The notes beneath the pieces were generated by a model that saw only the letters and a program-made list of their open reading frames with translations, was not told the DNA's origin and made no database searches. Source: Edaphobacter dinghuensis (GTDB taxonomy: Bacteria; Acidobacteriota; Terriglobia; Terriglobales; Acidobacteriaceae). Taken from it: a DNA stretch of 64,000 nt. The translations under genes were made by a program, and so were the position numbers. Position 1 is the stretch's first letter; each line of letters opens with the position of its first letter. The stretch lies in NCBI RefSeq assembly GCF_014640335.1, contig NZ_BMGT01000002.1, positions 248,001-312,000 on the forward strand. The letters run 5' to 3'. Shown here piece after piece: positions 4,429 to 36,472 of the stretch.

Positions 4429-4968
4429 ATGCCTCGCTCACTCTCCAACCCGACCGTCGCCCACCAGCCCAAGCCGGTGGTCAAGGCGAAGGACCGCGAT
4501 CCGGTAGCTGCGGGCCTGAGGGATGCTGCATTTAATCGTTCAGCCAGCTTCAATTACTTCCTCTCCGACAGGTTCGAGGCGGGCGTCGCCCTGCGAGGAA
4601 CCGAGGTAAAGTCGATCCGCGAGGGTAAAGCCAACCTGAAGGATGCCTATGGCTTGCTCAAGGACGGCGAATGCTTTCTGCTGAATGCGCACATCGGTCC
4701 CTTCTCGCATGGCAATGCGATGAATCATGAATCACTGCGTACTCGCAAGTTGTTGCTACACAAGACCGAGGTTCGCAAACTCGAAGCATTGACGCGGCAA
4801 AAAGGATTTACCCTCATTCCTGTCCGTCTCTACTTCCGCAACGGCCGCGTCAAGTGCGAGCTGGCTCTCGCCAAGGGCAAGCAGGACTGGGACAAGCGTG
4901 AGACAGAGCGACGTCGCGAGGCCGACAATGAAGCCAAGGCTGCCGTCGCCAGAAGCCAGCGCCGCTAG
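4429..4968 (+). CDS. smpB: SsrA-binding protein SmpB
   Basis: A 179-residue SmpB. It binds tmRNA and delivers it to stalled ribosomes for trans-translation. The core is well conserved: NYFLSDRFEAGVALRGTEVK near residue 43, KANLKDAY, HIGPFSHGN, RKLLLHKTE, and a Lys/Arg-rich tail (KGKQDWDKRET) that enters the ribosomal decoding channel. The N-terminus carries about 35 extra residues before the SmpB core compared with the usual protein of about 155 residues, and the true start could lie inside it. It is divergent from the secretin operon and has no obvious operon partner. The tmRNA gene is not in this window. Confidence 0.95.
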   Translation: MPRSLSNPTVAHQPKPVVKAKDRDPVAAGLRDAAFNRSASFNYFLSDRFEAGVALRGTEVKSIREGKANLKDAYGLLKDGECFLLNAHIGPFSHGNAMNHESLRTRKLLLHKTEVRKLEALTRQKGFTLIPVRLYFRNGRVKCELALAKGKQDWDKRETERRREADNEAKAAVARSQRR

Positions 4969-5069
4969 ATTCTCCTTCCCTTATCGTTGTTCCGCATGTA
5001 CCTCAGGACACAAGCTGAGATGTCATCTTGTCTCCGCCCAATGGCCGAAAATCGGGTTACGATAGTTTC

Positions 5070-13558: not shown

Positions 13559-13634
13559 GAGAGCGTAGCTCAGTTGGTAGAGCATCGCCCTTTTAAGGCG
13601 TTGGTCCTGGGTTCGAGCCCCAGCGCTCTCACCA
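13559..13634 (+). tRNA. tRNA-Lys (anticodon TTT)
   Basis: A full 76-nt cloverleaf. The acceptor stem is GAGAGCG/CGCTCTC, the D arm GCTC-AGTTGGTA-GAGC, the anticodon loop CTTTTAA with anticodon TTT, and the T arm CTGGG-TTCGAGC-CCCAG. The discriminator is A and the 3' CCA is encoded. The only flaw is a T-T mismatch at the top of the anticodon stem. It reads AAA and AAG lysine codons. Confidence 0.96.
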
Positions 13635-28110: not shown

Positions 28111-28833
28111 GTGAGTCGCAAAGCCCAACCCGCCCGCTACCCGGCCAATCAGACCCTGCTCATCGACGCAGACGATACCCTCTGGGAGAACAACATCTAT
28201 TTTGAGCGGGCGATCGCTTCTTTCATCTCTTATCTCGACCATCGCATCTATAACGCCGAACAAGTTCGCGAGCGCCTCAACTGCGTCGAACGCGCGACCA
28301 TCGCCTCGCGCGGCTATGGTTTAAACAGCTTTCGCCAATCGCTTATCACCTGCTTCGAGCAGCTTACCGATCGCCCCATTACACCGGACAAGCACGCACG
28401 CATCGTCAGCTTTGCCCAATCCATCGCCGACCAGGAGATCGAGTTGCTTCCCCACGTAGCTGAGACTCTTGCCGAGCTCGCCACGCGCCATCGTCTCATC
28501 CTCGTCACCAAGGGAGACCATGCCGAACAGAGCGATAAGCTTCAACGCTCTGGTCTTGCGCCGCACTTCAGCGCCGTCGAAGTGCTACCTGAAAAGCACA
28601 ACGCGGCGTATCGCAGCCTCTCGGCGCATCATGGCTGCGAAGGTTGCACCACGTGGATGATCGGCAATAGTCCCAAGTCTGACATCAACCCTGCCTTTGC
28701 TGCCGGGCTCAACGCCATCTTCATCCCGCATGACTTTACCTGGGCACTCGAACGCGAGAATATCGACCATCCGCCCGCAGACCGGCAGCTTCTCGAACTC
28801 GCGCACTTCGCAGACCTGACTCGTCACTTCTAG
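28111..28833 (+). CDS. HAD-superfamily hydrolase
   Basis: A 240-residue haloacid-dehalogenase-type phosphatase. Motif I is LIDADDTLW (nucleophile Asp about residue 19, acid/base Asp 21), motif II is LVTKGD, motif III is a Lys in the KLQRSG or PEKHN region, and motif IV is GNSPKSDINPA. A helical cap lies between motifs I and II. Enzymes of this type remove phosphate from small metabolites; the substrate is unknown. The start is GTG 28111. It is divergent from the orphan secreted protein and is followed by the Cys-rich peptide gene. Confidence 0.85.
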   Translation: MSRKAQPARYPANQTLLIDADDTLWENNIYFERAIASFISYLDHRIYNAEQVRERLNCVERATIASRGYGLNSFRQSLITCFEQLTDRPITPDKHARIVSFAQSIADQEIELLPHVAETLAELATRHRLILVTKGDHAEQSDKLQRSGLAPHFSAVEVLPEKHNAAYRSLSAHHGCEGCTTWMIGNSPKSDINPAFAAGLNAIFIPHDFTWALERENIDHPPADRQLLELAHFADLTRHF

Positions 28834-28861
28834 CCTAATTTTCTCTTCCAGACTTCAAAAC

Positions 28862-28887
28862 TGTAAGATCTGCGAGCCTCATCCGTC
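28862..28887 (+). promoter_or_regulatory. Candidate ECF sigma-type promoter
   Basis: TGTAAG (28862-28867) and CGTC (28884-28887) are 16 bases apart, the usual layout of ECF promoters (a TGTAAC-like -35 and a CGTC-type -10). It precedes the Cys-rich peptide and the ECF sigma gene, so self-activation by that sigma factor is plausible. A small hairpin (CGGAC/GTCCG, 28899-28914) lies in the leader. Confidence 0.4.
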
Positions 28888-28932
28888 AGCTACAGTGTCG
28901 GACATAACAGTCCGGCAAAAAGGAGAATGGAA

Positions 28933-28998
28933 ATGAATACATACCTATGCCCTTGCGGACTGGATTGCCCCTGCGGACCTGGCTGCCCTTGCTCGTAA
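28933..28998 (+). CDS. Cysteine-rich 21-residue peptide, metallothionein-like
   Basis: A very short open frame with a textbook ribosome-binding site: AGGAG at 28921-28925, 7 bases before ATG 28933 (an ATG at 28927 is too close to it). The peptide starts MNTYLC and then repeats the unit PCGxxC, ending PCS: six cysteines at residues 6, 8, 12, 14, 18 and 20, five of them followed by Pro or Gly. At the DNA level the repeat is two 18-base units plus a partial third. Such spacing suits thiolate metal binding. It lies 68 bases upstream of an ECF sigma gene that itself has two Cys motifs. I know of no described family; a metal buffer, sensor or leader peptide are all possible. Expression is not shown. 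Confidence 0.6.
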   Translation: MNTYLCPCGLDCPCGPGCPCS

Positions 28999-29018
28999 TC
29001 TCACTAATCAACCATCAT

Positions 29019-29048
29019 GGTGCGGTGTGGAGCGATCCACACCGCACC
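29019..29048 (+). terminator. 12-bp stem-loop between the Cys-rich peptide and sigma genes
   Basis: GGTGCGGTGTGG (29019-29030) pairs perfectly with CCACACCGCACC (29037-29048) around the loop AGCGAT. No T-tract follows. The stem ends 18 bases before the sigma ATG, so it may act as an attenuator, an RNA-stability element or a translational block that sets the ratio of peptide to sigma factor. Confidence 0.6.
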
Positions 29049-29066
29049 TGAAAGACTTGTTCCATC

Positions 29067-29600
29067 ATGCAAACCGAAGTTATCGCCGGCCTTATCGACC
29101 AAAGAAAGCAGTTTCTCCGCTTCGTCGAAAACCGTGTCAGCTCCCGTGTTATTGCTGAAGACATCATCCAGGCGGCTTACATCCGCGCCATGGAAAAGGC
29201 TTCCACGCTCAACAAAGGCGAGTCTGCCGTCGCCTGGTTCTATCGCATTCTGCGCAACGCCGTGATCGATCACTATCGCCATCGCGCTGCCGAAGATCGT
29301 GCGCTCGAGCAATGGGCCAAGGACCTCATCACCGAGACGCAACCCGATGCAACGACCCAGCAGATTGTCTGCCAGTGCATCGACAATGTCCTTGCAACAC
29401 TCAAGCCCGCTTACAGCGAGATCATCCGCGATGTCGATCTTGCCGAGAACTCCATTGACTCGTTCGCGAAGAAATCAGGCATCACTCCGGCGAATGCATC
29501 CGTCCGCGCTCATCGCGCTCGTCAGGCACTCAAAAAGCAGCTCATTCAGACCTGCCGTACCTGCGCCAAGCACGGCTGCATCGACTGTACCTGTCCCTGA
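29067..29600 (+). CDS. ECF sigma factor with CxC linker and Cys-rich C-terminal tail (CorE-like)
   Basis: A 177-residue ECF sigma factor. Region 2 spans about residues 10-85 (EDIIQAAYIRAME, AWFYRILRNAVIDHYR) and region 4 about 103-160 (LKPAYSEIIRDVDL, then NASVRAHRARQALKKQL). Two features stand out: CQC at residues 102-104 between the two regions, and a tail CRTCAKHGCIDCTC at 163-176 with five cysteines and one His. The same two features define the copper/cadmium/zinc-responsive CorE-type (ECF44) sigma factors, which sense metal directly and have no anti-sigma factor. None is encoded here. The Cys-rich peptide gene lies upstream; the receptor gene downstream is convergent. The metal sensed and the targets are not evident. 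Confidence 0.85.
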   Translation: MQTEVIAGLIDQRKQFLRFVENRVSSRVIAEDIIQAAYIRAMEKASTLNKGESAVAWFYRILRNAVIDHYRHRAAEDRALEQWAKDLITETQPDATTQQIVCQCIDNVLATLKPAYSEIIRDVDLAENSIDSFAKKSGITPANASVRAHRARQALKKQLIQTCRTCAKHGCIDCTCP

Positions 29601-29664
29601 TCGGCATCGTTCGTCATAGCTCCGAGCCGGATATGTTATCTCGGCCCGAAGCCATGACCTTCTA

Positions 29665-32600
29665 TCAGAAGTAGAACTTGCCGCCGAGTTCAACTGTGCG
29701 AGCCTGGTTGATCTGCTGCAGGGTAACGGCTCCGAAGTTCGAGTCGTTGGGGTTCGTATCCGGTGCGCCGAAGCGTGGGTGATTCAGAGCATTGAACGCA
29801 TCGAAACGGAGTTGAAAGCGAGTAGTGGAGTTGATAGCAAAGTTCTTATAGAGGCCAACCACCAGTTCGCTGACTCCCTGCTGGCGAATATTTCCCCAAC
29901 GGGTCGGATAGTTGCGGATATATGCGGCAAAATCTTGATAGACGCCGTTGCGGATCGTATCTCCTTTAGGCGGTTTGTAGCCGGCACCCGGCATCTGCTG
30001 TATGCCCGTCCACGCGGGATAGGTTGAGATGTCGGTATTCCGGTTGGGAAAGGCGACAAACTGGCTGGTATCGAACCAGCGCTTCAGGGTTCGCTGCTTG
30101 CCCGTGAGTGCAGCACTCTGCCCGCTGTAGAAAGAGTCCGTCGAAAAGACGACAGGAACGCCGGAGCTGGCCGAGTAATTCCCTGTGATCTCCCATCCAC
30201 CGACCAGCATATCCAACGGGCGGGACAGCGATCCGCCCCACTGGCGACCACGTCCAAAGGGAAGATCCCATATTCCGGTGAGAGCGAGAACATAGGGACG
30301 ATCTTCTCCGCCGAGCTTGTGCTCAACCTTGGGGCCTGCAATCTGAGGCCCCAGGAACGCGGTATCTTCAAAGAGCTTCGACCAACTAAAGGCGGTAATC
30401 AACGAGAGCCCGTTTGAATAGCGGCGCTCAATCTTGGTCTGCAGAGCGTCGTATCCGTTCTTGCCCGTGGGTCGGTTCTGGTTGATCGCGCCCAACAGTG
30501 GAATGGGATTGAGCAACTGGTTGACGGTTACGTTCTTGCTGCTGGCGATCGTACCGGTTACATTCGGCAACTGGTAGAAGGGATTGGGAAGCAGCGTGTT
30601 CCACGGCAGAATATCGCCGGGACGTCCGTTGGCATCGAAGACAGGTTGTTGCAACTGCTTCCACAACGCGAAGCTGGGCTCGTTTTCATTCCACGTCCAC
30701 GGAATGTTGTAGGTCTTATTGTGCGAGTATCCGATCTCGAAGAGCCAGCTTCCATATTGCTGTTGCAGATGCAGCGAATACTCCCACGAGTACATGCGGT
30801 TGAGGTTGGGATCGTCCCAGTTGACTCCCTGTCCGAGGTTCGTCAACGGCCCAAGCGAAGAACCCGTCGGTTGCAAAATGCCACTATGAAATGGATTGGA
30901 GAGCGTGTCATAGGGCGTCAGGTTATTGTCCTGCGATGTGATCAGAGCGGTCGTACGCGAGAAGCCGTTCTGTCCGCCGGTCACAAAACTGGCCTGGGTA
31001 AAGCGTCCGAAGCCACCGCGAAGAACAGCATTCGGCGCGATCTTGTAAGCAAAACCGGCGCGAGGCTGCCACTCGTGATAGTCCGGATCGACCGGCGTGC
31101 GCGGCGTTCCGTTGACTCCTGCGAACAACTGCGCTCCCATGACCTTGAAGGCAGAGGAAGGCAAAAGCTGGTTAAGAATCTGTACACCGGCGTTGGATTG
31201 ATTGTTCGCCATAATGCTGGCGTAGGAGGCCTGTGCCGAGTTGCTGACAGGATTGATGACAGTCGGATCGAATCGGTCCGTCAGGCGATTGTGACGCTCG
31301 GTGATCGGCTGTTCCAGGTCCCAGCGCATGCCGAGATTCACCGTCAGTTTCGGCGTCAGACGCCAATCGTCCTGAAAAAAGCCTGCGATGTAGTGCTGCG
31401 AGTAGAAGGCAGTCGCGTTCACAGGCACGTTACCACCAGAGGGCAGCCCCAGCAGGAAGGCAGCAAAGGTGCTCCCGTTGCCCGTGCCCCCAGAGACGAG
31501 TGCGTTCTGCTGCGTCCATGTACTGGTGAAGTCAAACTCGCCCTGGTTGCCAAGATTTCCCGCGGCATTCTGCAAGATCCAGAACTCACCGCCGAAGCGG
31601 AAGGTGTGTGTCTTGTAGATCTGGGTAAGAGTTGCGGCCCAGGTGTGATACGTGTCCATGCTGTATGACGACGCGTTCGTAGTGCCGAAGTCCCCCGCTA
31701 CTCCCTTGATGTAGGGGAACGAAGGCTTCACAAGTTGCGAAGTAAACGCCTGCGAGAAGCCTAGCTTCGTTGGATCGAAACCGGCGCCGTTGCTCGAGGA
31801 AGGGCTCTCATAACGGTTAAGCGTGTAGTGCATGGAAAGGACTCTGCTGTCCCCCAACGTCCATACATGGTCGATACCGACTCGCTTCGACGTGCGAAAG
31901 AGATTGCTGCCACTGGCAACAGTGCCAAAGTTGTTGCCGCTGAACTCCGACAGATGATCCCAGTTGACAGTGACGAAGCTGTGCTGCGAATTATTCCAGT
32001 TCTGGTCGACGCGTACAGCAATGACCGGATATGTGTCCTGTCGTGTCGCCGGCGAGACGAAGTTATTGGAGTCCGTCGACGTACCATCTCCCGCTGTATT
32101 GGGCAGCGGAATGTAAGCGAGGATATTTTTCGCAACCGGATCGAGCAGACTAGGCGTAATCACGTTTCCACCAAACTGTTTGCGGTTGCCCTTCGAGTCG
32201 ACCTGGAACGGGTTGTAGATATTGATCGGATAGGTAACGCGGTTTCCGCTGACGACCTGGGTCGTGAAGGACTGGCTGAAATCTCCTGTACGCTCGAGCG
32301 CCGTAGGCAGCGAAAGCGTGCTCGGCAGCGGATTAGTGTTGATGGTCTTGTCGAAGGCAAAGAAGAAGAACGTGCGGTCTCTTCCGTTGTAGATCTTTGG
32401 CAACCTCACCGGTCCGCCAAACGTGCCTCCAAACTGGTTGAAGTGAACGGACGGAGTCGTTAAGCCGATCAAATTGTTCTGGTAGAGATTGGCGTTGAGA
32501 AAGTTGTTCTGGTTGTACTCATACAGAACGCCGTGATACTGCTTACCTCCGCCTCGCGTCTCCATGTTGATGGTCGCACCGGCCTGACGCCCGATCGACG

Positions 32601-36387: not shown

Positions 36388-36472
36388 GCGGAGGTGGCGA
36401 AATTGGCAGACGCACTAGCTTGAGGTGCTAGCGCCGCAAGGCATAGGGGTTCAAGTCCCCTCCTCCGCACCA
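36388..36472 (+). tRNA. tRNA-Leu (anticodon GAG)
   Basis: An 85-nt class II tRNA. The acceptor stem is GCGGAGG/CCTCCGC, the anticodon stem-loop CTAGC-TTGAGGT-GCTAG with anticodon GAG, followed by a long variable arm and the T loop GTTCAAG. The discriminator is A and CCA is encoded. It reads CTC and CTT. secG starts 42 bases downstream with no terminator between. Confidence 0.96.

Follow-up and report, generated by a model that had tools for sequence, protein, structure and literature searches.

The locus examined here raises the question of what a Cys-rich reading frame of 21 codons does just upstream of the gene for an ECF sigma factor. In the window, the 64,000-nucleotide stretch of Edaphobacter dinghuensis DNA that was analyzed, this frame occupies positions 28933..28998 (+ strand, with the stop codon ending at 28998) and encodes the peptide MNTYLCPCGLDCPCGPGCPCS. 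Six of its 21 residues are Cys and CxC units are present, a composition shared with small, Cys-rich metallothioneins. A Shine-Dalgarno sequence, AAGGAG, is found at 28920..28925 (+ strand), 7 nt 5' of the ATG at 28933. An alternative in-frame ATG at 28927 is positioned only 1 nt from AAGGAG, and because of this difference in spacing, 28933 is the likelier start. Thus, the initial annotation, which described a 21-residue, six-Cys frame with a ribosome-binding site upstream of an ECF sigma gene, agrees with the sequence; its start coordinate of 28927 is in frame and gives way to 28933 as the likelier one. Directly 5' of the peptide module lies a gene for a HAD-family hydrolase (window 28111-28833). 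A known RNA element at the locus was ruled out, as an Rfam scan of the window returned two tRNA genes (13559-13631 and 36388-36469) and no further RNA element. A consensus scan of 28800-29700 revealed neither a sigma-70 promoter nor an intrinsic terminator.

The downstream gene (29067..29600, + strand) encodes a 177-residue protein of the CorE type. The CorE/CorE2 group corresponds to the former ECF44, now ECF238. The protein consists of sigma-2 and sigma-4 regions only, as expected for an ECF sigma factor: Sigma70_r2 scores 47.9 bits (cutoff 24) and the NCBIfam sigma70-ECF model 68.3 (cutoff 42.9), while Sigma70_r4_2 alone scores 20.3, which is below its cutoff of 25.7. Cys102 and Cys104 form a CQC linker, and the tail contains Cys163, Cys166, Cys171, Cys174, and Cys176 in a C-X2-C-X4-C-X2-C-X-C arrangement, along with His169, as had been claimed for the linker and the five-Cys, one-His tail. 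The CorE study places the tail cysteines of CorE at positions 181, 184, 189, 192, 194, and 206, with Cys189 being the main residue for copper activation (PMC3107203). The spacing of the five window residues is identical to that of the first five of these (181/184/189/192/194), and the earlier assignment of the sigma factor to the CorE type is therefore upheld by both its CxC linker and its tail. Among the adjacent genes, namely that of the HAD hydrolase and a 1218-aa ORF on the opposite strand, no anti-sigma gene is evident; one encoded away from this locus may exist. The window genome holds six other sigma matches, which are 25-28% identical, and no second close copy.

To place this locus among its relatives, sigma matches were collected from three overlapping genome draws. 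The family draw of 250 genomes yielded 40 with a match at E ≤ 1e-15; with the limit set at E ≤ 1e-25, a match was found in 64 of the 399 genomes drawn from the class and in 45 of the 396 drawn from the phylum. The 113 stretches around these matches (all except the partial match G470:C29), together with the window and L037, make up 115 loci, among them L176 and L177 with distant sigmas that are devoid of the core Cys tail. These loci are not all independent: one genome contributes both L171 and L172, and the sigmas are identical within the pairs L093/L145 and L100/L129. Four acidobacterial members of the CorE group were already listed in 2011 (PMC3107203). A CxC motif within residues 80-125 is found in 111 of 113 sigmas, and C102/C104 are invariant across 23 aligned sequences. 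The C-X2-C-X4-C-X2-C-X-C tail is present in 108/113, the window included. The five sigmas without this core comprise L136 (CC, no middle Cys), L108 and L151 (other patterns), and L152 and L178 (frameshifted or cut); the L178 homologue (G390:C2) is read in two frames.

The tail also bears on the identity of the metal. The same module could have zinc or cadmium, instead of copper, as its natural metal, since CorE2, a sigma factor of the same kind, responds to Cd and Zn (PMC8999054 and PMC9023288), cuoB is weakly responsive to Cd and Zn through CorE (PMC3107203), and thiolate peptides also bind zinc and cadmium. CorE2, however, has an extra Cys right after the equivalent of CorE Cys184 (PMC9023288). 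No sigma with the five-Cys core, neither that of the window nor any other of the 108, has this residue, which would give a CC pair. A CC pair does occur in L136, which is not among the 108; this locus carries a peptide despite a tail that lacks the middle Cys. Based on these comparisons and on the targets described below, a zinc or cadmium module is considered unlikely, and the metal that the window sigma would most likely sense directly, by way of its CQC linker and five-Cys tail, is copper.

Upstream of these sigma genes, ORFs comparable to the window frame were sought by a fixed rule (15-70 aa, at least 5 Cys, at least 16% Cys, and no more than 600 nt upstream of sigma). Such an ORF was found in 64/115 loci, compared with a chance expectation of about 4.7 for 115 sigma genes, based on a background of 50 Cys-rich ORFs by the same rule in 771,281 bases, both strands counted. 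Inspection reduced this number to 60/115 by removal of L071 and L132 (TTG starts, not family-like) and of L176 and L177 (distant sigmas); the second Cys-rich ORFs of L081 and L152 were also removed, and peptide start codons were hand-curated for 12 loci. The frame is consequently conserved upstream of related sigma genes, a check that the initial annotation had named. Forty-seven of the 60 peptides are co-directional with sigma (21-51 aa, median 26), and the other 13 are encoded divergently on the opposite strand (39-52 aa). With three further peptides located beyond 600 nt from sigma, the curated set contains 63 members. At L139, the start used by the peptide ORF is out of frame with the ATG beside the Shine-Dalgarno site. 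About 160 to 36 nt 5' of the distant sigma of L176 (G710) lies an ORF of 40 aa in which CC motifs recur (MTATASGCCEVSAQATCCTAEEKVSCCG...); it is uncounted here.

The consensus C-x-C-G-x-x-C-x-C...C-x-C emerges both from the 63-row alignment and from 15 peptides hand-picked from its rows. In the 15, the six Cys of the window peptide and the Gly after the second Cys are invariant; across all 63 rows, the Cys pattern is recognizable and the Gly and some other positions vary. Peptide length and Cys spacing differ widely, and little is conserved beyond Cys, Pro, and Gly. In 44 peptide pairs of at least 55% identity, which share sequences and are thus non-independent, pS is 0.60 and pN is 0.20. From such non-independent pairs, 94 of 313 Cys-Cys codon pairs differ only by TGC/TGT, compared with 11 changes from Cys to another residue. 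When the window peptide is compared with that of L109, the relative nearest to it, pN/pS amounts to 0.42 and no Cys is lost. By this measure, the Cys codons of the family are protected, as the second of the named checks had asked, and the upstream enrichment and codon protection together rule out a chance ORF.

Membership in a known peptide family was likewise ruled out: for the 15 of 63 peptides scanned, no curated match lies above cutoff, the best E values being 0.019 in Pfam and 0.7 in NCBIfam. In Pfam, a single one of these 15 weakly matched Metallothio_6 (E 0.019) and a single one Metallothio_2 (E 0.041), and no NCBIfam metallothionein model was matched. A profile of the 15 peptides reached four chains in the PDB at E 0.02-3.1, three of which are named metallothionein and one EC protein, which we take to be a plant metallothionein. 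The window peptide, used alone, had an unrelated inhibitor (E 2.3) as its sole match. Because no curated family matches, the peptide is termed metallothionein-like and is not assigned as a member.

The relationship between peptide and sigma factor is suggested by a promoter-like motif. The sequence upstream of the peptides has the consensus TGTAA(T/G)(G/A)TT ... CGTCAGC, which is found in 55/62 ORF rows with a single spacing throughout, though seven spacings were permitted. After curation of the starts, TGTAA-N17-CGT lies within 220 nt upstream of 61/63 peptides. In the window, the predicted CorE-type promoter is TGTAAG-N16-CGTCAGC (−35/−10 elements) at 28862..28890 (+ strand), which scores 30.7 bits by PWM, and TGTAAK-N16-CGTCAGC has one exact match in the window genome, upstream of the window peptide. 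At the divergent loci, the motif is oriented toward the peptide and away from sigma. A strict form of the consensus, which misses the window's own site, gave 40 sites in 35 genomes when 80 of the 98 sigma genomes were scanned, versus 4 for the reversed pattern. Across the 250 family genomes, the strict pattern occurs in 15/40 with sigma and in 5/210 without (Fisher p 8e-10). The reversed control pattern is present in 13/250 (4 with sigma and 9 without), and because it gives 9 in the sigma-less genomes, the 5 motif sites seen there are at chance level. In G180, one of the 15 motif-bearing sigma genomes, the site is far from sigma. By association, we infer that the motif is recognized by the CorE-type sigma factor, and the shared promoter marks the peptide as its predicted target. 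The earlier proposal of a co-regulated metal buffer is in this way made more specific. On a Pseudorhizobium flavum plasmid (L252), a 20.4-bit site near 4699 (− strand) of this promoter type is positioned just 5' of a Crp/Fnr-family gene in the vicinity of a CorE-like sigma, hinting that the promoter rule may reach into Alphaproteobacteria.

The motif also precedes other genes, and these contribute to the identification of the metal. A PWM scan of the 115 loci placed it before YHS or HMBD plus P-type ATPase ORFs (22 loci), before a cupredoxin-type protein in L130-L134, and before HMA-type proteins in L155 and L158. The 22 ATPase labels are our own, were assigned from the first residues except in L037, L093, L153, and L166 (Pfam), and include the short YHS-only ORFs L092 and L138. 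The names for L131-L134 (cupredoxin) and L158 (HMA) were likewise taken from the first residues, and L164 was labeled HMA through kinship with L155, not by the motif. Pfam was scanned on representatives (L037, L093, L153, L166, L130, L155, L242, and L246). The motif-associated ATPases of L093 and L242 pass the cutoffs of both the NCBIfam copper-translocating model TIGR01511 and the Cd model, with the higher score on the former. In G015, a strong site lies 5' of an ATPase of the YHS or HMBD kind on a contig other than that of sigma. The ATPase scores and the cupredoxin and HMA targets thus argue for copper over zinc or cadmium. Three other sites were observed. A second promoter-like site is shared by two related genomes (G158, L245 about 5001-5029, and G236:C6:244076-244104); in G158 it scores 32.4 bits and precedes a 470-aa protein that begins with a Met/His-rich segment and matches nothing in Pfam or NCBIfam. 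A 55-aa ORF with CC and CCC motifs (L125:4735-4899, − strand), possibly another type of small thiol effector, lies under a 30.6-bit site downstream of sigma. A DUF4177-matching protein (L119:4378-4959, + strand) lies under a 34.5-bit site at a locus that also has a divergent peptide.

No target other than the peptide-sigma operon is clearly predicted in the window genome. This genome was scanned by pattern and not by PWM, a procedure by which degenerate sites could be missed. Sites with up to two mismatches number 170, versus 195 for the reversed pattern, and further sigma targets were rejected on this basis, such sites being no commoner than reversed ones. Four of the 13 one-mismatch sites were inspected (L241, L247, L248, and L249); by eye, without Pfam, none is directly 5' of an obvious metal gene, and the highest, 10.1 bits in L247, is the sole one of at least 10 bits. 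A CopA-type ATPase gene lies in L241, about 3 kb from the one-mismatch site and behind an opposite-strand ORF. It stands beside the gene of a metal-sensitive repressor (Trns_repr_metal), and no motif of at least 10 bits was found in the 12-kb stretch around it.

On a sigma tree of 111 rows (L152, L176, L177, and L178 left out), the outputs cluster, with 21 changes versus 58.8 after shuffling. For five sigmas of the same genus that fall within the peptide group, no peptide or motif was seen within 5 kb; the same holds for L071 (G034), which is next to a peptide-bearing relative. Outside the class, the peptide is present in 4/23 sigma loci and absent in 19/23; it was found in none of six plasmid CorE-like loci from other phyla, and a plasmid search with one divergent peptide as the query gave no match. 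When 17 chosen genomes were searched with a peptide profile, the known locus was recovered in 4/4 peptide genomes and, in the 13 others, one marginal match with a stop appeared (G242, E 0.067); the sensitivity of this search is limited, with an E value of 0.015 for the window peptide itself and recovery of one of the two peptide loci of G523. By eye, the sequence before sigma in the same-genus, peptide-less loci L135, L146, L148, and L150 resembles the end of a HAD-type gene, and the peptide and its motif may therefore have been lost or gained between such a gene and sigma. These distributions bear on the idea that the peptide is a dedicated partner of the sigma factor, acting as a metal donor or a thionein-type inhibitor and not as a bulk buffer. 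The two genes are tightly linked, and a Cys-rich character is common to the peptide and the sigma tail. Sigmas of the same family, however, occur in loci without a peptide, and the wide variation of the peptides near sigma, in length (21-52 aa) as in Cys spacing, argues against such a partner; this idea is considered very improbable.

The transcript predicted from the promoter contains two hairpins. The 5' leader hairpin at 28896..28917 (+ strand) has the stem TGTCGGAC / GTCCGGCA, with 8 bp including one G-T pair and a 6-nt loop, and sits between the promoter and the Shine-Dalgarno site, directly 5' of the latter. Leader stems of at least 5 bp are found in 46/61 leaders and have 54 distinct stem sequences. 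Individually, 20/61 reach p ≤ 0.05, and the combined p of about 1e-17 is indicative only, as it comes from mononucleotide shuffles of related sequences. A perfect 13-bp hairpin without a T-run lies between the peptide stop and the sigma start (29019..29048, + strand). Intergenic stretches after the peptide have z < −2 in 38/43 cases and a perfect stem of at least 9 bp in 25/43; in the nearest relative, L109, z is −4.8 and no perfect stem exceeds 4 bp. In a single-stem test against shuffles (p ≤ 0.05), 33/47 co-directional and 5/13 divergent peptides have such a structure after the stop, compared with 18/115 stretches after sigma stops as a control. T-rich tails follow the hairpin in only 2/47 co-directional loci. 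The hairpins may serve to protect the mRNA and to lower read-through into sigma.

An ORF 5' of the sigma gene with an intervening hairpin is also the arrangement expected of a cis-acting leader or attenuator, in which translation, through copper on the nascent chain or through cysteinyl-tRNA supply, would control read-through past the 29019-29048 hairpin into sigma and the peptide itself would be functionless. Leaders with Cys codons occur in mycobacteria. Upstream ORFs that sense copper also exist, namely CruR (PMC9426467) and CutF (PMC9973294). In contrast to this expectation, 13/63 peptides are divergent, with a promoter directed away from sigma; three of 63 are distant copies; and a solo copy is found on a sigma-less contig of a fragmented assembly. 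This solo copy, in G487, is a lone Cys-rich ORF (MNNQTSTQSTCCPNCNCGGGCGCGCK, L244 about 734-814) under the motif on a 5.3-kb contig, and the sigma contig of the same assembly has 2.1 kb upstream of sigma without a peptide. The frame is therefore not always in a 5' leader, and the hairpin in the window has no T-run, nor did the consensus scan of 28800-29700 show a terminator-like site. Moreover, non-synonymous change is held down across the whole peptide, and none of the 15 peptides scanned matched the CruR/DUF2946 model. A cis-acting leader peptide is thus disfavored and seems quite unlikely, although at co-directional loci the ORF may have a dual role as leader and peptide.

The preferred reading, to which we assign a probability of roughly 0.7, is that a copper-sensing CorE-type sigma factor has, as its main predicted output, a micro-metallothionein encoded in its own operon. 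In the proposed mechanism, the metal-activated sigma, most likely copper-bound via its CQC linker and five-Cys tail, would recruit RNA polymerase to 28862-28890. The resulting transcript would comprise the 5' hairpin, the 21-residue Cys-rich peptide, the second hairpin, and sigma. The short peptide message would probably be stable and abundant, and sigma would be made at a lower level. As a micro-metallothionein, the peptide would capture incoming copper in the cytoplasm; as the free metal falls, sigma would be silenced, thus closing the loop. Metal binding, the identity of the metal as copper, sigma dependence, and feedback are all read here from sequence comparison. A copper thionein driven by sigma would explain the orientation of the promoters, the exchange of a thiolate peptide for a copper exporter as the output, and the protected Cys residues. 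A more tentative extension, which we consider possible but doubtful, is that the peptide is the metal off-switch of sigma, a micro-thionein that strips copper from the tail and is tuned by a hairpin-set ratio of peptide to sigma. If true, this would be a two-gene autonomous copper buffer with negative feedback, a thiol counterpart of an anti-sigma factor; the one metal-sensing sigma would then have essentially a single effector of 21 residues to serve.

If the preferred reading is correct, the metallothionein-like peptides of bacteria gain a family of very short members (mostly 21-52 aa), of a size that is easily overlooked by routine gene calling, and CorE-type sigma factors gain a direct thiolate effector. 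TGTAA-N17-CGT would then be a promoter rule by which CorE-type regulons may become readable from genomes, among them a genome where a single tiny peptide seems to be all that an entire sigma factor serves, and it would become testable whether a metal buffer made by the sensor sets the sensor's own shut-off. Peptide and sigma together are suggested to be a small, self-contained module of metal control. What is new here is the TGTAA-N17-CGT rule that, by association, links CorE-type sigmas to peptide genes. The novelty of the peptide itself is provisional: in titles and abstracts among the matches listed, a scope that leaves aside preprints and the primary CorE2 and 2021 ECF-classification papers, no such peptide is described with CorE-type sigmas, and no literature, preprints aside, was found that combines a cysteine-rich peptide, an ECF sigma factor, and copper.

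Several known systems come close. CorE and CorE2 of Myxococcus xanthus and the window sigma are all ECF sigma factors with a CxC linker, and no anti-sigma gene is evident beside the window sigma. The CorE regulon contains copper ATPase and HMA genes (PMC3107203), and the sigmas of relatives of the window locus likewise precede such genes. The window sigma, in contrast, lacks the sixth tail Cys of CorE (206), and its predicted output is a thiolate peptide of 21 aa, with no other target found in the window genome; the CorE paper nowhere uses the word metallothionein in its main text. MymT, the mycobacterial copper metallothionein, is likewise small and Cys-rich and is required for copper resistance (PMC7558416 and PMC10141476). 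At 4.9 kDa (PMC7558416), compared with 21 residues here, it is likened to the window peptide by description only and not by sequence, and it belongs to the RicR regulon, whereas the window peptide is predicted to be sigma-activated. The metallothionein 1t2y, a short copper thionein of 25 residues, is comparable in length, is rich in CxC, and was reached by the profile search; at E 3.1, this is a resemblance in composition, with homology not established, and 1t2y is presumably fungal and thus eukaryotic. Finally, in CruR (PMC9426467) and CutF (PMC9973294), the latter also with a stem-loop, a copper-related ORF likewise lies before a regulated gene. Both act in cis via nascent-chain pausing, whereas the divergent and solo copies of the present family argue for a product that acts in trans.
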